Assembly: GCA_028708605.1 (NCBI GenBank)
Contig: JAQVYS010000006.1
Location: 1-59,402 of the forward strand
Source: Bacillota bacterium
GTDB taxonomy: Bacteria > Bacillota > DTU065
DNA: 59,402 nucleotides
Direction: 5' to 3'
The notes under the pieces: generated by a model
Databases searched by the model: none
Seen by the model: only the letters and a program-made list of their open reading frames with translations
Told to the model about the DNA's origin: nothing
Part shown: in pieces, positions 17,529 through 52,292 of the stretch
Numbering within the stretch: position 1 is the first letter of the stretch
How the letters are laid out: each line of letters begins with the position of its first letter
Translations under genes and position numbers: made by a program

Positions 17529-18842
17529 TTACTCCTTTATCTCCGCACCAAGCTTTTGAAGTTGACAGTAAAACTCAGGCTGCGAGACTTTAGCACACTC
17601 ACTATCTTTTATAGTGATGCCATCTGTGCTATTTATCCCAGCTATAGCAGCAGCCATTGCTAGGCGGTGATCGAGTCTTGGATCATATTCTCCGCCACTA
17701 AAGCTACCTAAAACCCCTTTAATAGTAAGGGTTAAATCCTTACCTTCGCCTGATACATAACTTTCTCTACCTAAAAGGCTAAGTAGTTCTATCGTGCCAC
17801 TTAGTCGATCTGATTCTTTAACAGTCAGCTCGAAAACCCCATTGATAACCGTCTCTCCTTCTGCAGCTGCGCAAATAACTGCTAGAAGAGGTATCTCATC
17901 TATAAGAGTAGGAATCTCAAAGCTCTCTACAGTTGTGCCGAAAAGCTTTTGACTTGTGATATAGATATTACCATTTGGCTCGATATCAGCGTTTTTATCT
18001 ATAGTAATTTTTGCGCCCATTCTTTCTAAAACCTTAATTAACCCTGTTCTTGTCGGATTTAAGTTAACATCCTCTAAAGTTATTTCGCTCTTTTCACTTA
18101 AAAGACCTGCCCCAATAAAAAACGCTGCGGAAGAAAAGTCGCCTCCAACTCTTACTCTTATGCCAGAAAGCTTTTTCTTAGGCTCTATCGTGATTAAAGA
18201 TCCACTTTTTTTGATACCTGCTCCCATTTTTAACAGGATTCGTTCTGAGTGGTCTCTTGAAGGAGTATTTTCTATAATAGTGCTAGTGCCTTCACTATTT
18301 AACGTTGCAAGTAAAATTGCTGTTTTTAGCTGAGCTGAAGCTACTGGCAAGGTGTAGTTTATACCTTTTAGCTTTGTGCCTTTAATAGCCAAAGGGGCAA
18401 AACCTTGGGTGCGAGAGAAAATCTCTGCACCCATACTCTTTAATGGATCTGCAATTCTTGCCATCGGTCTCTTATTTAAGGACTCGTCGCCCGTTAATAC
18501 AGCGAAGATATCGCTGGGAGCAAGAAGCCCCATTAAAAAGCGCATCAACGTCCCAGAGTTACCACAGTAAACTGGAACACTTGGCTCTTGAAGACTTCTA
18601 AAACCAGGCCCTTTAGTAATTAAGGTATCCCCCTCAAGCTTGTACTCAAGGCCAAAAAGAGAGGCCGCGATCAAAGCTGATTTTGGATCTAATGCCCTGC
18701 TGATCTTTTCGAAGACACATTCCTCATTTGTTAAAAGGCTAAACAAAATAAGACGCTGCGAGATCGATTTATCGCTTTCAGGGCGAAGGGGGCCCATTAA
18801 TGGTTTATTAGTCTTTTTTATTGTTAAATTCATATTTACCAC
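17529..18842 (-). CDS. aroA: 5-enolpyruvylshikimate-3-phosphate synthase
   Basis: This 437-aa enzyme joins shikimate-3-phosphate and PEP in the sixth shikimate step. Seen are GPLRPESDKSISQR (substrate lysine), CGNSGTLMRFLMGLLA, SAQLKTAILLA and DEIPLLAVICAAAEG. The start overlaps the tyrA stop by 7 bp; the ORF begins [10 protein letters not shown] and the internal Met is an alternative start. The SAQLKTA form in the active-site region suggests a class II type enzyme; this is a family-level guess. Confidence 0.95.
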   Translation of the reverse strand: MVNMNLTIKKTNKPLMGPLRPESDKSISQRLILFSLLTNEECVFEKISRALDPKSALIAASLFGLEYKLEGDTLITKGPGFRSLQEPSVPVYCGNSGTLMRFLMGLLAPSDIFAVLTGDESLNKRPMARIADPLKSMGAEIFSRTQGFAPLAIKGTKLKGINYTLPVASAQLKTAILLATLNSEGTSTIIENTPSRDHSERILLKMGAGIKKSGSLITIEPKKKLSGIRVRVGGDFSSAAFFIGAGLLSEKSEITLEDVNLNPTRTGLIKVLERMGAKITIDKNADIEPNGNIYITSQKLFGTTVESFEIPTLIDEIPLLAVICAAAEGETVINGVFELTVKESDRLSGTIELLSLLGRESYVSGEGKDLTLTIKGVLGSFSGGEYDPRLDHRLAMAAAIAGINSTDGITIKDSECAKVSQPEFYCQLQKLGAEIKE

Positions 18843-19870
18843 CTAGCTTCTAGAGTGTAACCTAATTCTTTTAAGAGATTATAGGCCTCTAAAGCTTTCT
18901 TAGAAGAAGAAAAGCCCAACCTTAGTGGTCCTGTTTCTCCTTCTCGTTGTTTTAAAATCTCTATTTCCTTAATGTTTATATGTTTTTTAGCCAAAATAGA
19001 TGTGATCTCTCCAATTTCTCCAGGCTTATCTTCTACTTTAATTACCAGTGAAAAGACTTCGCCAACAACACCTTTTCCTCTAAACGGTAGTTTTTCACGA
19101 ATCGTACAGGCCTCTTTAAGGTATGGAGTTAGTTCTTCTTCTTTGCAAAGCTTATTAAATATCTCAGCAAAGGCTGACGCAGCATCTTTCAGATAAGGAC
19201 TTTGCGAGAGAATCTGCTGCCAAAGCTTTGGGTCACCACTTGCAATTCTTGTAGTATCCCTAAAGCCTCCAGCTGCCATTAAAAAGAGTCTGTCATCCCC
19301 ACCTGAAATCTTTTCCGCAGCTAATGTCAATGCTACAGCAACAAGGTGTGGCAAGTGAGAAACAGCAGCGACCATCTGGTCATGTGAGTCTGGATCTATT
19401 AAAAACGTGTATGCTCCCAAAGCTTCGATGTAGGGTGTAACCTTCTCAATCACAGCTGTAGGACGCGTTGAGTCTACCATCCACAGAGCATTTTCAAAGA
19501 GAGATTGGTCGGAGGCGCTTATGCCTCCTTTTTCTCTGCCAGCCATAGGATGAGTACCTACAAAATTGGGAATATCATTTAGCGAATTTGCTAGATCAAG
19601 CTTTAAACTACCAACATCAGCAATTACCATATCGTACTGGCTTAAGGACTTGACGACACCTGCAACACTGTTTATAGGAACTGCAACAAAAACCACTTCA
19701 ACACCATTTAGATCTAAAAGGCTATCTGAGACCTTTTGACAGATGCCTTTTTCTTTTGCAATTTCAAGTGTTTTTGGGTCTAAATCAACACCTATTACCT
19801 CATATTTATCCCTAAGGCCAAGCGCAATGCTCCCTCCAATAAGACCTAATCCTACAACTCCTACACTCAT
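18836..19870 (-). CDS. tyrA: prephenate dehydrogenase with ACT domain
   Basis: This 344-aa enzyme oxidatively decarboxylates prephenate to 4-hydroxyphenylpyruvate for tyrosine. The N-terminal NAD loop is [30 protein letters not shown] and [11 protein letters not shown] are catalytic-domain blocks. The C-terminus (from about residue 265, [19 protein letters not shown]) is an ACT domain, as expected for tyrosine feedback. It overlaps both aroF upstream and aroA downstream. Confidence 0.95.
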
Positions 19871-20877
19871 TTTAATTTGAAGAATCCTTTTAAAACATCG
19901 ATTTCTCTTGCAAGATCATCGAATTCAGCAGGTGTCAAGGATTGAGGACCATCTGAGAGAGCCTTTTCAGGATCAGGGTGAACTTCAACTATTAAGCCGT
20001 CTGCCCCAGCTGCAACAGCTGCAAGGGAGAGAGGCCTTACATATTGTCTGTGACCACCGCTATGGCTAGGATCGATGATAATAGGTAAATGGGACAACTC
20101 TTTAACAACAGGCACAGCGCTAATATCTAAGGTATTGCGTGTTGCTGTTTCAAAAGTACGAATACCTCTTTCACACAAAATCACGTTATGGTTTCCTTCG
20201 CTCATAATGTATTCTGCAGCCATCAACCACTCAGAGATTGTAGCTGATAAGCCTCTCTTTAGAATAATCGGTTTTTTGATCCTGCCTACTGCCTTAAGCA
20301 AAACGAAGTTTTGCATATTTCTGGCGCCAATTTGTAAAACATCCACATATTCTGCAACCATATCTACATCATCTGGATCGATCACCTCTGTAACTACCCC
20401 AAGGCCAGTTAGCTTTGAGGCTTCTCTGAGAATCTTTAAACCCTCTTCTTCAAGACCTTGGAACGAATATGGCGATGTGCGCGGTTTAAATGCTCCACCG
20501 CGAATAAGGGAGGCTCCAGATGCCTTAACCGCCTTTGCTGCTGCAAGTAACTGCTCGTGGCTTTCAACCGCACAAGGCCCAGCAATAATCCCAAAATGCC
20601 CTCCTCCGAATTTGGCGTCTCCTACCTCAATAACTGACGGTTCAGCATGAAACTCTTTTCCGCCTAATTTATAAGGAGAACGAATTGGTACCACACGCTC
20701 GACCCCAGGGAAAGTCTCGATGTTGGCGGCAAGCAAAGCATCTCGATTGCCAAGTGCTCCAATAATTGTTCTTTCAACACCTTCTGAAAGGTGAATACCA
20801 AACCCTAAATCCTCTAAACGTTCTTGGACCTTTTTGACTTCATCTGCGTTTGCTTTAGCTTTCATTACGATAATCAT
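19867..20877 (-). CDS. aroF: DAHP synthase (first enzyme of the shikimate pathway)
   Basis: This 336-aa enzyme condenses PEP and erythrose-4-phosphate. The N-terminal 70 residues form the ferredoxin-like regulatory domain ([21 protein letters not shown]) seen in type I-beta enzymes. The barrel shows [44 protein letters not shown] and [10 protein letters not shown]. It overlaps the upstream aroH-hisC gene and downstream tyrA by 4 bp each, so the pathway enzymes are made in close ratio. Confidence 0.96.
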
Positions 20878-22337
20878 TTGCTAATTCCTCCGTCTCTTAT
20901 CTCAGTGAATAGGTTCCAGAATTTTTCCATTTGCTGTTTTGTTCCAAGACTGACTCTAATATAATCATCTAGACCAAAAGAGGCAGCACTTCGGACAATA
21001 ACACCCTTCTTTAACATTTCTTGGACTATGTCTTTAGCACGTTCTACTCTGATTAAAACAAAGCTAGCTTCACTTTCGACATATTCAATGCCTTCTGCTT
21101 TACATTTGTTGTAAAACTCTCTTTTCATAGAGGCGTTTTCTCTAAAACAAAAATCTCTATGGCCAATGTCTTCTAAGCTGCTTATAGCCGCAGCTTGGGC
21201 CAACAGGTTTACGTTAAATGGCTCTCTCGTCTTTTCAATGCTACTAATAATATTTTCGCCTGCTATACCTACCCCAACTCTTAAGCCTGCAAGACCGTAA
21301 ATCTTTGAAAAGGTCCTTAGCACAATAAGAGGATAGCTATCTATCAGTTTTTTAAAATCAGGATATTTTGGGTTTTCGGCGTACTCTGCGTAGGCTTCGT
21401 CAAGAACAACTAAAACGTTTGTGGGTAGTCTATCTAGAAACCCTTCAAGTTCCTGATGAGTTACTATAGTACCTGTAGGGTTATTAGGATTACAGATATA
21501 ACACAACTTGGTCCTCTCATCTATCTCTCTTAAAAAGCCATCTAAGTCATGGGTGAAACTTTTAAGTGGTACTTTTTTTACACCAGCTCCCATAAGGCGA
21601 GCGCCAAATTCGTACTCGCTAAAGGTGATGTCAGCTATGACTATATTGTCTTCTTCATCTAGGTAAGTTTCACTAATCAGCTTAATTAGCTCATCTGAGC
21701 CGTTTCCAACGATAAACTGAGAAAAATCCAACCCATAAAATGAGGCTAACTTACTTTTAAAGTCGTAGTTTGCGCCGTCTGGATATAGACTTACCGATTG
21801 TAGCTTTTTAGCCATAGTCTCTAAGGCTTTTTTGGATGGACCAAAGGGATTCTCATTTGAGGCAAGCTTAATTACGTCTTCTAAACTATACTCTCTCTTA
21901 ACCTCGTCAATAGGCTTTCCTGGGACATATGGTTTTATCTTGGAAAGTGCACCTCTTGGCTTTGGCGATCTTTTTTCTTCTATTGCTTTTTCCACAGGCC
22001 ATCCCCACTCCGGTCTAAGCTTTGTAGCTTTTCTTAAGTACAAGTTTCTACCTGGTTTTGTTGTGTAGATTAATAGTCTGATACAAAGAGGAATCTGGTT
22101 AGCGATATTTAACTGAGTAACATCCAAAAGTGCTACGTTTTCATAGCCTTTTAGACGGATAAAAGATGCAGGGTATGCAGCCTTTATATCTTCTGTACTA
22201 GATACAATAACACTAATAATATCTCTTTCTCTAAAGCTATTTAGTTCTGTAAAAGATAACCACAGTTCATCCATAGCCTCTTTGATCTTTTCTTTAGTAT
22301 TTTCTTCAACTGTGGTAGCTGCTCTTAATGCGTACAT
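20874..22337 (-). CDS. fusion: AroH-class chorismate mutase + HisC-like aminotransferase
   Basis: This 487-aa fusion couples two enzymes. Residues 1 to about 112 match the monofunctional AroH chorismate mutase fold: R5 (=B. subtilis R7), R61 region (R63), CIR (R90), [11 protein letters not shown] (Y108). At the key Glu78 site it has Gln, and Asp replaces Cys75. From about residue 130 it is a class I/II PLP aminotransferase of the HisC family: [29 protein letters not shown], and Schiff-base lysine in [15 protein letters not shown]. Joined to chorismate mutase and heading aroF-tyrA-aroA, it more likely makes Tyr/Phe from their keto acids than histidinol phosphate; that is inference. Confidence 0.9.
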
Positions 22338-36121: not shown

Positions 36122-36592
36122 TTATGTGTCAAGGTTTACCACATCTTTAGCCACATGGTAAACTAATTCATCAGGAAATCCCCGGCGTAGAAGATAGCCA
36201 CAGAGCTTTATATAGGTCTTTTCATTATCTCTCTGTAATAACTTAGTATATTTTTGAGCCACTCGAAAAGCTAGCTCTTCTTCAAGCTCTTTTGGATACT
36301 CCTCTTGAAGTACTTTTTCTATGAGTGTGCCCTGAATACCTTTTTTACGTAACTTGCTAAATACTAATCTTTTTCCTTGCGGATTTAGAAGCAGTGTGTC
36401 ATGAATAAAGGCTCTGCAAAACCGGATATCATCAATAAAGCCTTGCTCTTTTGCCCATGCAATTGCTTCGTCTGTTACCTCAACGGAAAACTTGGCCAAT
36501 TTAGTTCTTATTTCATGTTCGCTATAGAATCGTTTGGATATTAGATTTGCTATCCTTTTCTTAGCGAGAGGCAAAGATGAACTATCATTCAT
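36122..36592 (-). CDS. recX: regulatory protein RecX
   Basis: This 156-aa protein of three-helix repeats ([63 protein letters not shown]) restrains RecA filaments. Its ATG overlaps the last 8 bp of recA. If it is translated by coupling to recA, its yield could depend on ribosomes crossing the spliced recA message. Confidence 0.92.
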
Positions 36593-36980
36593 CTAAAGAA
36601 TCCTTTCCATCATTTTCATCTTCCATACGACCTTTATATCCAGGTAAAGAGGTTTGTTCTCTTATTTTGTGCTCGATCTCGTTACATATCTCTGTATTTT
36701 GTTTTAAAAATTCTCTACAGTTTTCTCGTCCTTGTCCAAGTCTCATATCTCCATAGGAAAACCACGAACCGCTCTTTGTTACAATTCCTAGTTCTACAGC
36801 CACATCTAAAATGCATCCTTCTTGAGAAATACCTAAGCCATAGATAATGTCAAATTCTGCGACTAAAAATGGTGGTGCTACTTTATTTTTTACAACCTTA
36901 ACACGAGTACGGTTTCCTATAAACTCACTACCTACTTTTAGTGATTCAATCCGCCTTATATCAAGACGTACAGAAGCATA
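36585..36980 (-). CDS. recA: recA exon 5 (396 nt)
   Basis: Codes for the last 131 residues, from [17 protein letters not shown] to the acidic tail [13 protein letters not shown]. The acidic C-terminus is normal for RecA. Overlaps the recX start. Confidence 0.93.
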
Positions 36981-39900
36981 GTAGGATAGGGAGATGTCGC
37001 CTTGCTGAGTTGCCCCAGTAGGTTTACTTCGCCCCTCCTCCGAACCGTACGTACACCTTTCGATGTATACGGCTCTCTAATTGTCAAACCAAGTCCTTGA
37101 AGATATCGCTATACAGTTTTAAGTAAAAAATGTTTTAACTGGACAAATATCTCTAGACTTCTGTCATGTTTCCACTTTTTGATATGTTATTTACATAAAC
37201 CTTCTATTGAACCAAGACAGAATTTTGCAAAGCTAAAATCACTTATAGCTAATCTCCATTTTGGACTCAATTATTCCTAACACTATTTCAGAATTTTGTA
37301 TGGCCTTTGCCACATCCTGTTTAGTTTTAGGAATATGACAATCTGTTTCCCTTCGCCATGTAATGGGCTTTCCCTTGAGGTCGTTACTCTCGTTCAGATG
37401 TTTTACATCCTACCATCTCTGACTACTACGGAAACTCCGTTACCATATCCGATATTCAGGTTCTTTAACCATAGCTGTGTAAATTTTTGTATATCACCAC
37501 AGCTTTCGGACTTAGGTAATCCCCGTTTAGCGTATCGTAGACAATTCTTAACTTTACTTAGGTTCCCGTTCGACCATTTTCTCCAGAGGAGATGAGAGGA
37601 ATCCTTCCATCTAGCATAATGCCAAATTCTAAGACATCTGCGTGATTCCTTCATACCATACTAACATCAATTAAGATATGAGCCGCACTTTCTAGCCTCT
37701 GATCTGGGTTTAAAGCAGTTTAGCTTTGACCTTATAAAGTATTTTTGGACTCGACATTCAGTTGCAGGGGTGATGTTCCTCCCGACTTATGCCTTTCCAA
37801 GCATGCTACTTTCCCCTTCAAGTTTCCCATCTAGGTCAGCTTGGTGTCCACAAGAGGATGGTTCTCTTGGTTGTCACGTTTTTGCGGAACAACATTCTAC
37901 GATGCACCACAAATAGATAACCACCTATTTTTACGGGCGCACGAACTTTAGTGCTCTACCACCTGGTGTTGTGTGGAGTCGAGATTAGTTTCCCGCTCCC
38001 CGAACCGTGCGTGCGAGTTTCCCCGCACACGGCTCTCCAACCGGACGCGTTGACGGAATCGTAATTCCTTCAAGCGTTGGATAGCCTAGCATAAAACGTT
38101 GGTAGACTTCTTTTTTGCCAGCTTTATCATATTTTTTTAGTAAAAAAAGGTAAACTCGTTCTCTAACGTAGCTATCTAAGTAGCGACTAAGTCTGCTGTC
38201 AGTACAAAAGCCAAAATCCGTATGCCAAGCAGAGATTGTCTTTGAAATCTCAATTGCTGTATACCGCGCACTAAACCCTGTTTTGCTACGTTCTGTTAGA
38301 TGCTTAACGCTTTTTTTAAACATTTCGATAGCTGACTTTGCAGGTAGTACTTTACAGATAGGATCAAGTTTTATCAGATAACCTGCAAAACTTAGATCAG
38401 AGTTTTCTGGTAGACCATCGATCTTTTTACTTAAGCTAAGCATCTGACCGTCTTTAATAAATACTGCAGTGTTTTTTAGTTTGAGAAGTGGTGCAAGTTT
38501 TATTAAGACATCTCTTTCCTTGATTTTTGCAGCTTTCCAGACGAGATCAATAAGTTCATTCTCTACTAAAACTAGTTTAAGTAGCCCAAAAAGTTCCTTT
38601 TTCAAAATCCCAAGATCTAGCTTTTCTACTTCAAGCTTAACTAGCTTTAAATCTGTAGCCTTTAATGCCTTATAAACCTCCAATCCAGTATCTTCTTTAA
38701 CTATTGCTTCGATTATTTCTAAAACAGTATCCACTAATAGAGAATCTACTTCATTACCGTCTAGAGGTCTATATGTCTGATTTAAAAGAGACTTGGAAAG
38801 AGTCCTTGCTGAGTTCTCACTGATTCTTAAAGCTTTCGCTTTTTTTACTAAATAATCATAATTGGCTATGGCTTGAAAAAGTCTACCTTCGCTTGCTAGT
38901 CTTTTCAACCACTCCTGCTTTCGTAAGGACACAGGTCATTCCTCCCTACTATTTGCGAGTGACCGGTCTGTCTCCCTTCGCAGAAACTTCCTACTACTAC
39001 GAAGACTCCGCCCCTTCTGCCCTTTGCAGAAGGTTCCTTTGTTCTCCTCTTTTGCTCTATTAACGATGGATTTAGGCTCCGCCTATGTCCGTCCCTTGCC
39101 CTGTTAAGGCATCCAAAACCATACCGGAGGGTAAGTTTTGAAAACGGGTGTTTTTTGGCATTCTACGGACCTCAAACAGCGATTCCTCTCGTAGCCATGT
39201 CCATCAGAGGCTAGCAGTTTTAACCACATTCCCGCCCAGCTCCATGCATTGTTACATGTGGGTTTGGCCTTTAGCATTAGATACTCTAACGCCTCTACAA
39301 AAGAGAAGCTTCAAAGCGCACCTCCGGATTGCCAAACATTATTCCAACTTTCTCCCGAATCTGATTGATGAAAATTACCAAACATTTTGTCTTGCCAACT
39401 ACACCTGTTAGTTTTCTAAGAGCCTGAGACATTAGCCTTGCTTGAAGACCAACGTGGGTATCACCCATTTCACCTTCAATTTCAGCTCTTGGCACTAACG
39501 CAGCAACTGAGTCAATAACAACGATATCGACAGCTCCACTTCTTACTAAAGCTTCTGTAATCTCTAATGATAGTGATAGGTAACGCTTTGTTTGTACTCT
39601 GCGTTTTCCCCCACTCCACACCGTGCGTGCAAGTTTCCTCGCACACGGCGTTCCATCGAAAAGGAATTTCCAAGATTCTAGGTGTGTTCTTTCTACACCA
39701 CAAAGATAAGTATCAATTCCTCTCCGACTCGTCCCCTTCACTCCTACTAGTTTTTCTCTTTCTAAGCTTACATGGCATATTAGAGCTAGTGCTCATCGCT
39801 ACTATGGGACGGCTGACTCCCAGTTAGATCTCATAGAAATCGTCCTTCTCCCTCTAACGGGCCTCACACGTTCCCTTAACCATATCCCTTGTTTTACGAT

Positions 39901-41532
39901 TCCTTAGGTGCCCTCTCTACTCGGCCAAATCCTTTATCTGATAAAGTCCATACTCATTAAAGGCAGTAACAAATAGATGATCCATTTATTAAAGTAACTT
40001 CCGCAAACAAGAAACGGTTGTTAATTTGATTCTGCCGTACCAGGCATTTTTAAACACCGAGCTTTATGCAAGGGTTCCTATGCGTCACCATAGATTCGTT
40101 TTTAAGGAGTCCCGCATCACTTGTGCCAAAGCATTTGCTTAGGCTACTTGGATTACGACCTCTCCTAGCTTCGTACAACCTAATTGAACGATAAATAAAG
40201 CTGCACGTAGGGGTATTAGACACTTAAACTTGGACTAAAATTTAAGGAAAGGACTCTCACCTTTCAGTTCTGGTTAAGAGTTGTTCTAGATTAAACATAG
40301 CCTTCGCTTTCCTGCTTTAAGCAGTTATACGAAAACGTGTCGCACCTTGCTCTCCAGTATCAGGCTGAGATACAAGAAGATTGTCGATATCTACGCCAAG
40401 ATTCTTTGCATACGCTGGATTTAATGATAGTGATAGGTAAACGTCATCCTCGTCTATGTTCATAAATAAATCCATTTATACGTTAGGAGCGTTTTTCCCC
40501 CACTTCACACCGTACGTGCAAGTTTCCCTGCATACGGCGTTCCATCGGAACAAGCAAATCTTTTGAAAAGTCTTTGTTCCGACTATGCCCCTTTGCTAAA
40601 GGTAGTTTTCTCCTCCTTCGCACATTACTGTACGTAGTAACTAGCGGCTACCTCTAAACGCTACTACGGGCTGCTGCCCCTCATCTGAAACAGTCATTTC
40701 CTACTGTTTAGAACCATCAGATTTCACTCTCTTTAACATGCTCTGATGAGGTTCACTTGTACCGCATCTCCTATCCTTACATAGCTCCCTTAGACTTCCT
40801 CTCTAACCCGTCAGCCGTCTTTTTGCCTTGGTTGGTGAACTAAAGACAGAAAACCTTTGTTGGGTTTAATTCAGTTAATGTAAACACGAATACAATAACT
40901 GAGACTGAACCTCCCATTAGAAGGCGTGAGCCTTTTTTTTGCACTCACTATGCTTTACGAGCCGTAATTTAAGGATTCATTTTCTTAGTCATAGAAGCTT
41001 TCTGGACTCCCGACTACTTCTCTAACCTCTTTTCAGGTCTGATTTTCGCCGACCTCTCCGAACTTCGCACGGTAATACAGTGAAATATTACCACACGTCG
41101 GGGGATTAGAGCGTGTGACCCAACTTTGTCACAGGGCTAGCACTTCCCCAGCCATTTCGAAGATGCAGTTAGGACAATTTTGTCCTGCTAGATTTAGATA
41201 GTGTTTCCACTAAGTTTGCTCTAGCAACAAGTCGTACCGTGTTCAGCATCGATAAAGGCGGCAACTCCGCCTAATTTTTGTGCCTCTGCGATTGCATGCA
41301 AAGCAACTGTAGTTTTTCCAGAACTCTCTGGTCCAAAAACCTCGATCACTCTACCTCTTGGCAATCCCCCAACACCCAAAGCTAAATCTAATGAAAGAGC
41401 TCCTGTTGGAATAGTTTCTACATCCATTGTGTGGTTTTCACCAAGACGCATAATTGAGCCTTTGCCAAAGTCTTTTTCTATTGATGTGATAGCACTTTGT
41501 AAGGCTCTTTCCTTAGCCTTAATGTCTGACAT
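36585..41532 (-). CDS. recA: recombinase A, split into five exons by four group II introns
   Basis: RecA drives homologous recombination and SOS induction. The gene is a join on the minus strand of 41532-41238, 40426-40346, 39569-39322, 37972-37943 and 36980-36585 (1050 nt, 349 aa). I set junctions by reading the conserved protein across each gap. The joins give [38 protein letters not shown] and KF/YASVRLD, with no residue missing. Walker A (GPESSGKTT), [11 protein letters not shown]1 and L2 are intact, and the length equals ordinary RecA. Each gap starts GTGCG (GTACG in the first), contains a group II domain V and ends in AT or AC. ThpR lies upstream, recX overlaps the end. Splicing itself is inferred. 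Confidence 0.92.
36981..37942 (-). mobile_element. group II intron 4 in recA (962 nt, no ORF)
   Basis: Starts GTGCGCCCGT and ends TATCCTAC. Domain V is at about 37042-37075 (GAGCCGTATACATCGAAAGG then ACGTACGGTTC), followed by a domain VI-like hairpin with GGAGGGG/CTCCC. No credible protein is encoded. Domain V resembles that of intron 3 more than those of introns 1 and 2. Confidence 0.86.
37943..37972 (-). CDS. recA: recA micro-exon 4 (30 nt)
   Basis: Ten codons, [10 protein letters not shown], exactly fill the L2 region missing between exons 3 and 5. It begins right after an intron end CCAC and is followed at once by GTGCGC of intron 4. Confidence 0.9.
37973..39321 (-). mobile_element. group II intron 3 in recA (1349 nt, encodes a maturase-like ORF)
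   Basis: Starts GTGCGCTTTG and ends CTCCAC. Domain V is at about 37999-38036 (GAGCCGTGTGCGGGGAAAC then CGCACGGTTC). It carries the 315-aa ORF at 38932-37985, which reads through domain V and stops 12 nt before the 3' splice site. Confidence 0.87.
37985..38932 (-). CDS. degenerate group II intron reverse transcriptase/maturase without the YADD palm motif
   Basis: This 315-aa intron-encoded protein starts at GTG 38932, 7 nt after GGGAGGA. It resembles group II intron proteins in order: the N-terminal RT part ending [12 protein letters not shown], a domain-2-like [21 protein letters not shown], then AGYLIK...[16 protein letters not shown] (thumb-proximal) and a maturase X-like region [10 protein letters not shown]...[21 protein letters not shown]. 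The stretch that should hold the GTPQGG and YADD motifs is shortened to about 40 residues with no YADD. No HNH endonuclease is present. It probably kept RNA binding/splicing and lost cDNA synthesis. The last 16 or so codons overlie domain V. The homology is judged by eye. Confidence 0.7.
   Translation of the reverse strand: MSLRKQEWLKRLASEGRLFQAIANYDYLVKKAKALRISENSARTLSKSLLNQTYRPLDGNEVDSLLVDTVLEIIEAIVKEDTGLEVYKALKATDLKLVKLEVEKLDLGILKKELFGLLKLVLVENELIDLVWKAAKIKERDVLIKLAPLLKLKNTAVFIKDGQMLSLSKKIDGLPENSDLSFAGYLIKLDPICKVLPAKSAIEMFKKSVKHLTERSKTGFSARYTAIEISKTISAWHTDFGFCTDSRLSRYLDSYVRERVYLFLLKKYDKAGKKEVYQRFMLGYPTLEGITIPSTRPVGEPCAGKLARTVRGAGN
39322..39569 (-). CDS. recA: recA exon 3 (248 nt)
   Basis: Codes from [20 protein letters not shown] through the Walker B-like DSVAALVP and loop L1 to [16 protein letters not shown] at the start of loop L2. 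Confidence 0.93.
39570..40345 (-). mobile_element. group II intron 2 in recA (776 nt, no ORF)
   Basis: Starts GTGCGACACG and ends CTATCACTAT. Domain V is at about 39617-39652 (CGCCGTGTGCGAGGAAAC then ACGCACGGTG). The domain V-VI part is close to that of intron 1, and both are inserted at G^CATTA, so the two appear to be sister copies. Confidence 0.86.
40346..40426 (-). CDS. recA: recA exon 2 (81 nt)
   Basis: Codes for [20 protein letters not shown] then QPDTGEQ, the helix-strand region after the Walker A domain. The first two bases (CA) complete the Ala codon begun by the last G of exon 1; the final G starts the next Ala codon. Confidence 0.92.
40427..41237 (-). mobile_element. group II intron 1 in recA (811 nt, no ORF)
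   Basis: Starts GTACGAC (third base differs from the usual GTGYG) and ends CTATCACTAT. Domain V lies at about 40509-40544, with the CGCCGT...ACGGTG helix and a GGAAAC loop region. It has no reverse transcriptase ORF, so it would need a maturase from elsewhere. Its 3' end nearly matches intron 2. Confidence 0.85.
41238..41532 (-). CDS. recA: recA exon 1 (295 nt)
   Basis: Codes for residues 1-98 plus one base, from [11 protein letters not shown] through Walker A to FIDAEH. The ATG follows AAAGGAGG. Unspliced, the frame runs only five codons into intron 1 before a stop at 41221. Confidence 0.93.
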
Positions 41533-51296: not shown

Positions 51297-52292
51297 CCTC
51301 AGGCAGTTATTTCATAAACCTGCCACAAAACCCCAACATTGTATTTTTCTAAGTCGATTAGACCTATTTCGTCAAACCACTTATTCGGTAAGGCTAGACT
51401 GAGTAAGGAGATCGCTGAGTTTCTCCATCGATTCATGGAGATTTTCACAAAATTACCTTTGTAGCCTCTTTGCCTTATTGTACAGTGGAGAGATTTCCAA
51501 CTTTTCCACTCACGCATTTTTTATCCTAAGTCTTCGACAAATCCAACCCAACATTACTCTCAACAAGATTTTACAGTTCGTAATTGAAAGTAACCACTCC
51601 ATCCCCTGAGAAATTGGTTTAGTTCCTCTACACTTCTCCCGCTGTTTCGCGGAGTTAGTTTCCTAACTCGGTTTTTAAACCGTTTGATGCGTTTGGGATG
51701 TACTGCAATATACTTTCTGTGTACGACTACGCCTAGAAAAGGTACTCCCTTATCTAGGCTAGTGATGTGAGTATTGGTTTTATTTACCACAAGCTTTAAG
51801 TCATTCGCTAGCATTTGTTCTGCTAGTTACTGATATCTATTCGCCTCATTATCATTTCGGGCAAAGTTAAAATATCGTCCGCATAACGCACGATTCTTAT
51901 CCCTTGAGCTTTCATCTTCTGATCAAATTCATCTAGATAGATATTCGCCAATAACAGAGAGATCACTCCACCTTGTAGACTACCTATCGCTATATCTTCA
52001 AAAGCTCCATCTGTAATTACACCTACCGTCAATGATGCCTTGATCAGGCTGAGGATTCTTCCATCACTAATATTCCTGTGTACTCCCTGGATAATTAGTA
52101 CATGATCTAGGCTGTCAAAACACTTCGATAGGTCCATGTCTACTACATAGGTGAAGTTGAACCTTTTAAGGAACAGCTCTGCTTTTGCGATCGCATGTTG
52201 ACATGAACGATTTGGACGGTAGCCGTAGCTCGATGGGTGAAAGAAAGTTTCAAAGATAGGCTCAATCACTTGACGCAGAACCTGCTGAGCAC
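51297..52292 (-). pseudogene. broken, 5'-truncated group II intron reverse transcriptase/maturase
   Basis: Three fragments in different frames make one RT. The first (from 52292) has QQVLRQVIEPIFETFFHPSS, YGYRPNRSCQHAIAKAELFL, DLSKCFDSLDH, GSLQGGVISLLLANIYL and RYADDI, then shifts frame. The second has LKLVVNKTNTHITSLDKG..FLG and LNQFLRGWSGYFQL. The third holds the maturase/C-terminal part (WKSWKSLHCTIRQRGYKG to LPNKWFDEIGLIDLEKY). At least two frameshifts and one stop are seen. The first 70 or so residues and all upstream intron domains are missing; the copy begins beside the ald terminator. It keeps YADD but is clearly dead. Confidence 0.88.

Follow-up and report, generated by a model that had tools for sequence, protein, structure and literature searches.

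A natural AroH-type chorismate mutase with aspartate at the Cys75 site and glutamine in place of the catalytic Glu78

An AroH-HisC fusion gene among genes for aromatic amino acid synthesis

The window, by which we mean the whole stretch of 59,402 nucleotides from a Bacillota bacterium that was analyzed, carries at positions 20874-22337 of its reverse strand an uninterrupted reading frame for a bifunctional AroH-HisC fusion protein of 487 amino acids. The first 111 residues (22005-22337, reverse strand) were assigned as an AroH-type chorismate mutase domain by profile matches and by the predicted fold: PF07736 (CM_1) covers residues 1-111 with an E-value of 1e-28 and 100.5 bits (cut-off 27), and TIGR01796 gives 86.1 bits for the AroH part of the fusion (cut-off 82). 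The HisC-type aminotransferase domain (20898-21950, reverse strand) is recognized by PF00155 (residues 154-473; E-value 1.4e-60) and by the NCBIfam HisC model TIGR01141 with 339.6 bits (cut-off 276.55). It is the sole HisC above the curated cut-off in the genome and may have a role in both histidine and aromatic amino acid metabolism.

The end of the fusion gene overlaps a gene on the same strand that profiles identify as a DAHP synthase with a ferredoxin-like domain (19867-20877). Two further reverse-strand open reading frames, judged from their sequences and from the conserved gene order, encode a TyrA-like prephenate/arogenate dehydrogenase with a C-terminal ACT-like region (18836-19870) and, next in the operon, an EPSP synthase (AroA)-like protein (17529-18842). 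The order aroH-hisC-tyrA-EPSP synthase is known from Bacillus and Listeria (PMC1173090). While the aroH-hisHb(hisC)-tyrA operon of these bacteria likewise places aroH and hisC beside tyrA and the EPSP synthase gene (PMC1173090), the locus described here differs from it in that aroH and hisC form one frame and that hisC and tyrA are separated by the DAHP synthase gene.

Among the five genomes of the family (that of the window and the L268-L271 set), aroH and hisC are fused in three and are separate, adjacent genes in two; the fusion is thus a merger of neighboring genes. Many AroH domains of the phylum are held by long open frames of 300-720 amino acids (L008/L067 from G040, and others including those of G215, G019, G070, and G310); in L008, the residues past the AroH domain resemble the start of a cytidylate kinase. 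Repeated fusion of AroH to neighboring genes in the phylum is thus suggested by the reading frames.

Active-site residues of the AroH domain and their covariation in the phylum

Chorismate mutase is an enzyme of phenylalanine and tyrosine synthesis. AroH enzymes, which convert chorismate into prephenate, are trimers with their active sites located between the subunits, and the B. subtilis enzyme is a standard test case for electrostatic theories of catalysis. The predicted fold of the window's AroH domain (pLDDT 95.8) lies within 1.0-2.1 Å of solved AroH structures (best 1xho with an rmsd of 1.0 Å; 2cht with 1.2 Å), and every one of the 28 solved matches at E ≤ 0.001 is either an AroH structure or a design based on AroH. 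The best solved matches by sequence and fold are the AroH proteins of Clostridium thermocellum (1XHO) and Thermus thermophilus (1ODE, 1UFY), and the fold of B. subtilis AroH (1COM, 2CHT, 1DBF, 3ZO8) is matched over about 113 residues with an rmsd of 1.2-1.8 Å. Its profile matches, its fold, and the residues at four of five catalytic positions tested make the window protein a member of the AroH family.

The exception among these five positions is Glu78, which is listed as a catalytic residue of B. subtilis chorismate mutase (PMC11796326) and is a glutamine in the window domain. HMMER and MAFFT align the B. subtilis segment Cys75-Met-Gln-Glu78-Met-Asp with Asp72-Val-Thr-Gln75-Leu-Asn; Asp72 (codon GAT, 22122-22124, reverse strand), the proposed catalytic carboxylate, occupies the Cys75 site and Gln75 (codon CAG, 22113-22115, reverse strand) the Glu78 site. 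In the following, we use the B. subtilis numbering. The initial annotation of this DNA had read the change of CMQEMD into DVTQLN in the same way, and the two alignment programs and the codons agree with it. It was likewise correct that Arg7, Arg63, Arg90, and Tyr108 are retained (as R5, R61, R87, and Y100); Cys88 and Leu115 of the B. subtilis enzyme are conserved as well. Further differences from B. subtilis AroH are Gly8 to Ala, Phe57 to Tyr, His106 to Asn, a loop preceding Tyr108 that is five residues shorter, and the fusion to HisC; within our sample, the exchange at Gly8 is restricted to the five members of the window genome's family. The serine noted earlier at the Lys60 site is indeed present, but a part for it in the rearrangement of the active site did not hold up, since only 38 of 250 AroH domains have Lys60 and a change at so variable a site is uninformative.

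An alignment shift that masks a glutamate was ruled out: the alignments against solved AroH chains (HMMER) and those made with MAFFT were free of gaps between positions 75 and 78 in every method, and the surrounding stretch of 16 residues is devoid of Glu. Neither program produced an alignment with Glu at the Glu78 site, the outcome that the initial annotation had named as speaking against its proposal. For the script alignments, the B. subtilis reference sequence was entered by hand; the alignments with PDB chains position the same residues independently. A sequencing error was excluded because four further genomes of the same genus and family share the Asp/Gln pair. Unlike the window domain, 1XHO (with Cys75) and 1ODE/1UFY (with Ser75) retain Glu78, and the Asp/Gln type was not found among the nearest solved relatives whose alignments were compared.

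To place this pair within the family, 249 distinct AroH domains from one phylum were combined with that of B. subtilis (250 domains in all). They were drawn from 80 relatives, from an even draw of 399 genomes (289 of them with CM_1), and from 68 previously unsampled genomes with mostly weaker scores. In this sample, which covers a single phylum and in which Asp/Gln types are partly oversampled, the residues at positions 75/78 were Cys/Glu in 174 domains, Asp/Gln in 26, Gly/Glu in 19, Asp/Glu in 16, and Ser/Glu in five; Asp/Val (three), Asp/Ala (two), Asp/His (two), and Asn/Glu, Thr/Glu, and Cys/Asp (one each) were rarer. All 250 domains have an acid at 75 or 78, and 16 of them have both (Asp75 and Glu78). 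An acid at position 78 is missing from 33 domains (Gln in 26, Val in three, Ala in two, His in two), each of which carries Asp75, as compared with 16 of the 217 others (Fisher p 2e-29, uncorrected for kinship); none of the 201 domains without Asp75 has lost the acid at 78. The rule already held for 29 of 29 such cases among the first 191 domains, and by corrected mutual information the 75-78 pair ranks seventh among 6670 column pairs. The covariation of D75 and Q78, for which the initial annotation had proposed a survey, is thus present: Glu78 is lost solely alongside Asp75, in 33 of 33 domains.

Arg7 (where covered) and Arg63 are invariant across the survey, and Arg90 is Arg in 248 of 250 domains; L222 (from G088), one of the two exceptions, has Lys at this site in the motif LVKVL. 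One search of genome contigs for the nearest relatives returned a single distant locus with Ser75/Glu78. Since 33 of 250 family members have no acid at 78, Glu78 is not a defining feature of the AroH family, and annotating activity by its presence would miscall about one in eight AroH proteins of the sample as inactive.

The order of the changes was assessed on three trees (two from IQ-TREE, one from FastTree) that were built without the columns in question. By parsimony, there were 15 changes for Asp75 and 9-10 losses of the acid at 78. Many forks in a tree of the short AroH domain are weakly supported, and an independent-pairs sign test found 1-2 pairs on strongly supported branches, too few for significance; for this reason, a Pagel-type likelihood test was used on the three trees. 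The dependent model beat the independent one on each of them, with likelihood ratios of 45.7, 44.8, and 50.4 (4 df; p 3e-9, 4e-9, and 3e-10). On the IQ-TREE trees, the fitted rate for loss of the acid at 78 lay at the lower bound without Asp75 and at about 1 in its presence; the FastTree tree gave a rate about six-fold lower in domains lacking Asp75 than in those with it. For loss of Asp75 itself, the fitted rate was close to zero on all three trees. In about nine to ten lineages, the gain of Asp75 came first and the loss of Glu78 followed.

As a compact example, close relatives within one family contain Asp/Glu (L070, L076), Asp/Ala (L014), Asp/Gln (L090), and Asp/His (L097). The codons (Cys TGY, Gly GGN, Asp GAY; Glu GAR, Gln CAR) would allow a stepwise path from Cys TGY through Gly GGY to Asp GAY, followed by a change of Glu GAR to Gln CAR, and glycine may have been the actual intermediate between Cys75 and Asp75. 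We consider it fairly probable that the path is gated, such that Glu78 could give way to Gln, Ala, His, or Val only after Asp had replaced Cys75, perhaps often through Gly, and that this happened some 9-10 times in one phylum.

In selections at Glu78 of B. subtilis AroH by Hilvert and Kast (JACS 1996), an acid at position 75 is said to have rescued the loss of Glu78. Those variants are laboratory mutants of the B. subtilis enzyme, whereas the gene in the window is a natural one. If the gated path is true, nature has moved a textbook catalytic residue again and again along the same two steps that are said to have emerged from laboratory selection. Within the collection of papers that was searched, no pairing of C75D, C75E, Asp75, or E78Q with chorismate mutase turned up. 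The protein is a natural variant inside the known AroH family, and specialists may already be aware of Asp75 from alignments. For them it is of interest as a clear-cut example, provided by nature, of epistasis in a model enzyme. Natural enzymes that carry the acid at either of the two positions or at both can be used to test how strongly the placement of a catalytic charge counts, in what order epistasis lets mutations occur, and whether the Asp75/Glu78 combination is a genuine bridge.

Function of AroH enzymes that lack an acid at position 78

The window genome (93% complete) contains one CM_1, one prephenate dehydratase, and one chorismate synthase, and a profile search found no match to AroQ (CM_2, PF01817) in it. 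A second mutase that covers for a dead domain was thereby ruled out for CM_1 and CM_2 in this genome, and for CM_2 in the other 32 genomes whose AroH has no acid at 78. None of these 33 genomes, 31 of which are at least 90% complete, has a CM_2, and 30 of them possess a prephenate dehydratase. For this reason, the AroH enzymes with a relocated acid are, judging from gene content, very probably working mutases that make the prephenate. The view of the initial annotation that the gene is a natural case of a compensating swap is thus upheld, in that Glu78 is lost only with Asp75 present and the profile searches detected no further chorismate mutase in the genome. In three genomes of the Asp75/Gln78 type (G002, G040, and G250, one of them a single contig) no prephenate dehydratase was found; these organisms either use another dehydratase or take up phenylalanine.

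We favor the reading, with a probability of roughly three in four, that the window domain is a working AroH mutase in which position 75 has taken over the catalytic carboxylate from position 78. The C4-OH oxygen of the substrate is contacted in B. subtilis AroH by Glu78 as well as by the Cys75 amide (PMC10782440), and an acid at the 4-OH group is held to be critical in AroQ and AroH enzymes alike (PMC12329711); a carboxylate on residue 75 would therefore be well placed to take over. Asp75 would accept a hydrogen bond from chorismate's C4-OH and would stabilize the positive charge building up on the ring in the transition state, a role assigned to Glu78 in B. subtilis AroH, with Arg90, Arg7, Arg63, and Tyr108 acting in their usual roles and Gln78 serving as a neutral polar partner, possibly for Arg90. 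What the data show directly are the residues, their strict covariation, the order of the two changes, the fold, and the lack of a second detectable mutase in the genome; that Asp75 touches the substrate and that the enzyme is active are what we infer. Against relocation, the side chain of Asp is shorter than that of Glu and belongs to a residue three places away in the backbone, and there is no guarantee of the same contact. The weakly supported forks of the tree, the restriction of the sample to one phylum, and the three genomes in which prephenate dehydratase was not found also weigh on this side.

In the chief alternative, Asp75 is needed for charge balance or positioning, mainly by holding Arg90, and not for a direct bond to the substrate hydroxyl; the covariation would then be real but mirror the electrostatics of the pocket. 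The salt bridge between Glu78 and Arg90 in B. subtilis AroH (PMC5458464) suits this explanation, since conservation may act on the presence of an acid close to Arg90, and so does the tolerance of Ala and Val at position 78 given Asp75. We nevertheless regard it as unlikely: in the two mutase classes alike, the acid is credited with contacting the 4-OH (PMC12329711), and Cys75 is located at that very hydroxyl (PMC10782440). The two roles are not mutually exclusive. Considerably less probable is a domain that is weak alone and boosted by a partner, either the fused HisC or the neighboring DAHP synthase, in the manner of the M. tuberculosis mutase with its DAHP synthase. The fusion to HisC and the overlap with the DAHP synthase gene would fit such a dependence, for which there is a known precedent in the unrelated AroQ class (PMC7762937), but two members of the family with the Asp/Gln pair are unfused and other Asp/Gln lineages have AroH in short stand-alone frames of ~120-150 amino acids. 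That the domain is devoid of mutase activity or acts on a different substrate, as the absence of the usual catalytic Glu might suggest, is hardly credible for the genome's only detectable mutase, whose gene lies alongside a TyrA-like one in an aromatic operon, with prephenate dehydratase and chorismate synthase genes elsewhere in the genome, and which keeps the remaining tested catalytic residues in five genomes.

The recA region of the window

On the reverse strand, recA is present in several coding pieces between positions 36588 and 41532, namely an N-terminal piece at 41224-41532 and others near 40320-40475, 39310-39566, and 36588-36985. This region contains four matches to group II intron domain V (40427-40542, 39570-39653, 37973-38037, and 36981-37077), two D1-D4 matches, and an open reading frame with a maturase domain (37985-38932); recA is thus apparently a housekeeping gene that carries up to four group II introns. 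Away from these introns, a fragment of an RVT_1 reverse transcriptase of 148 amino acids is encoded at 51823-52269 on the reverse strand.
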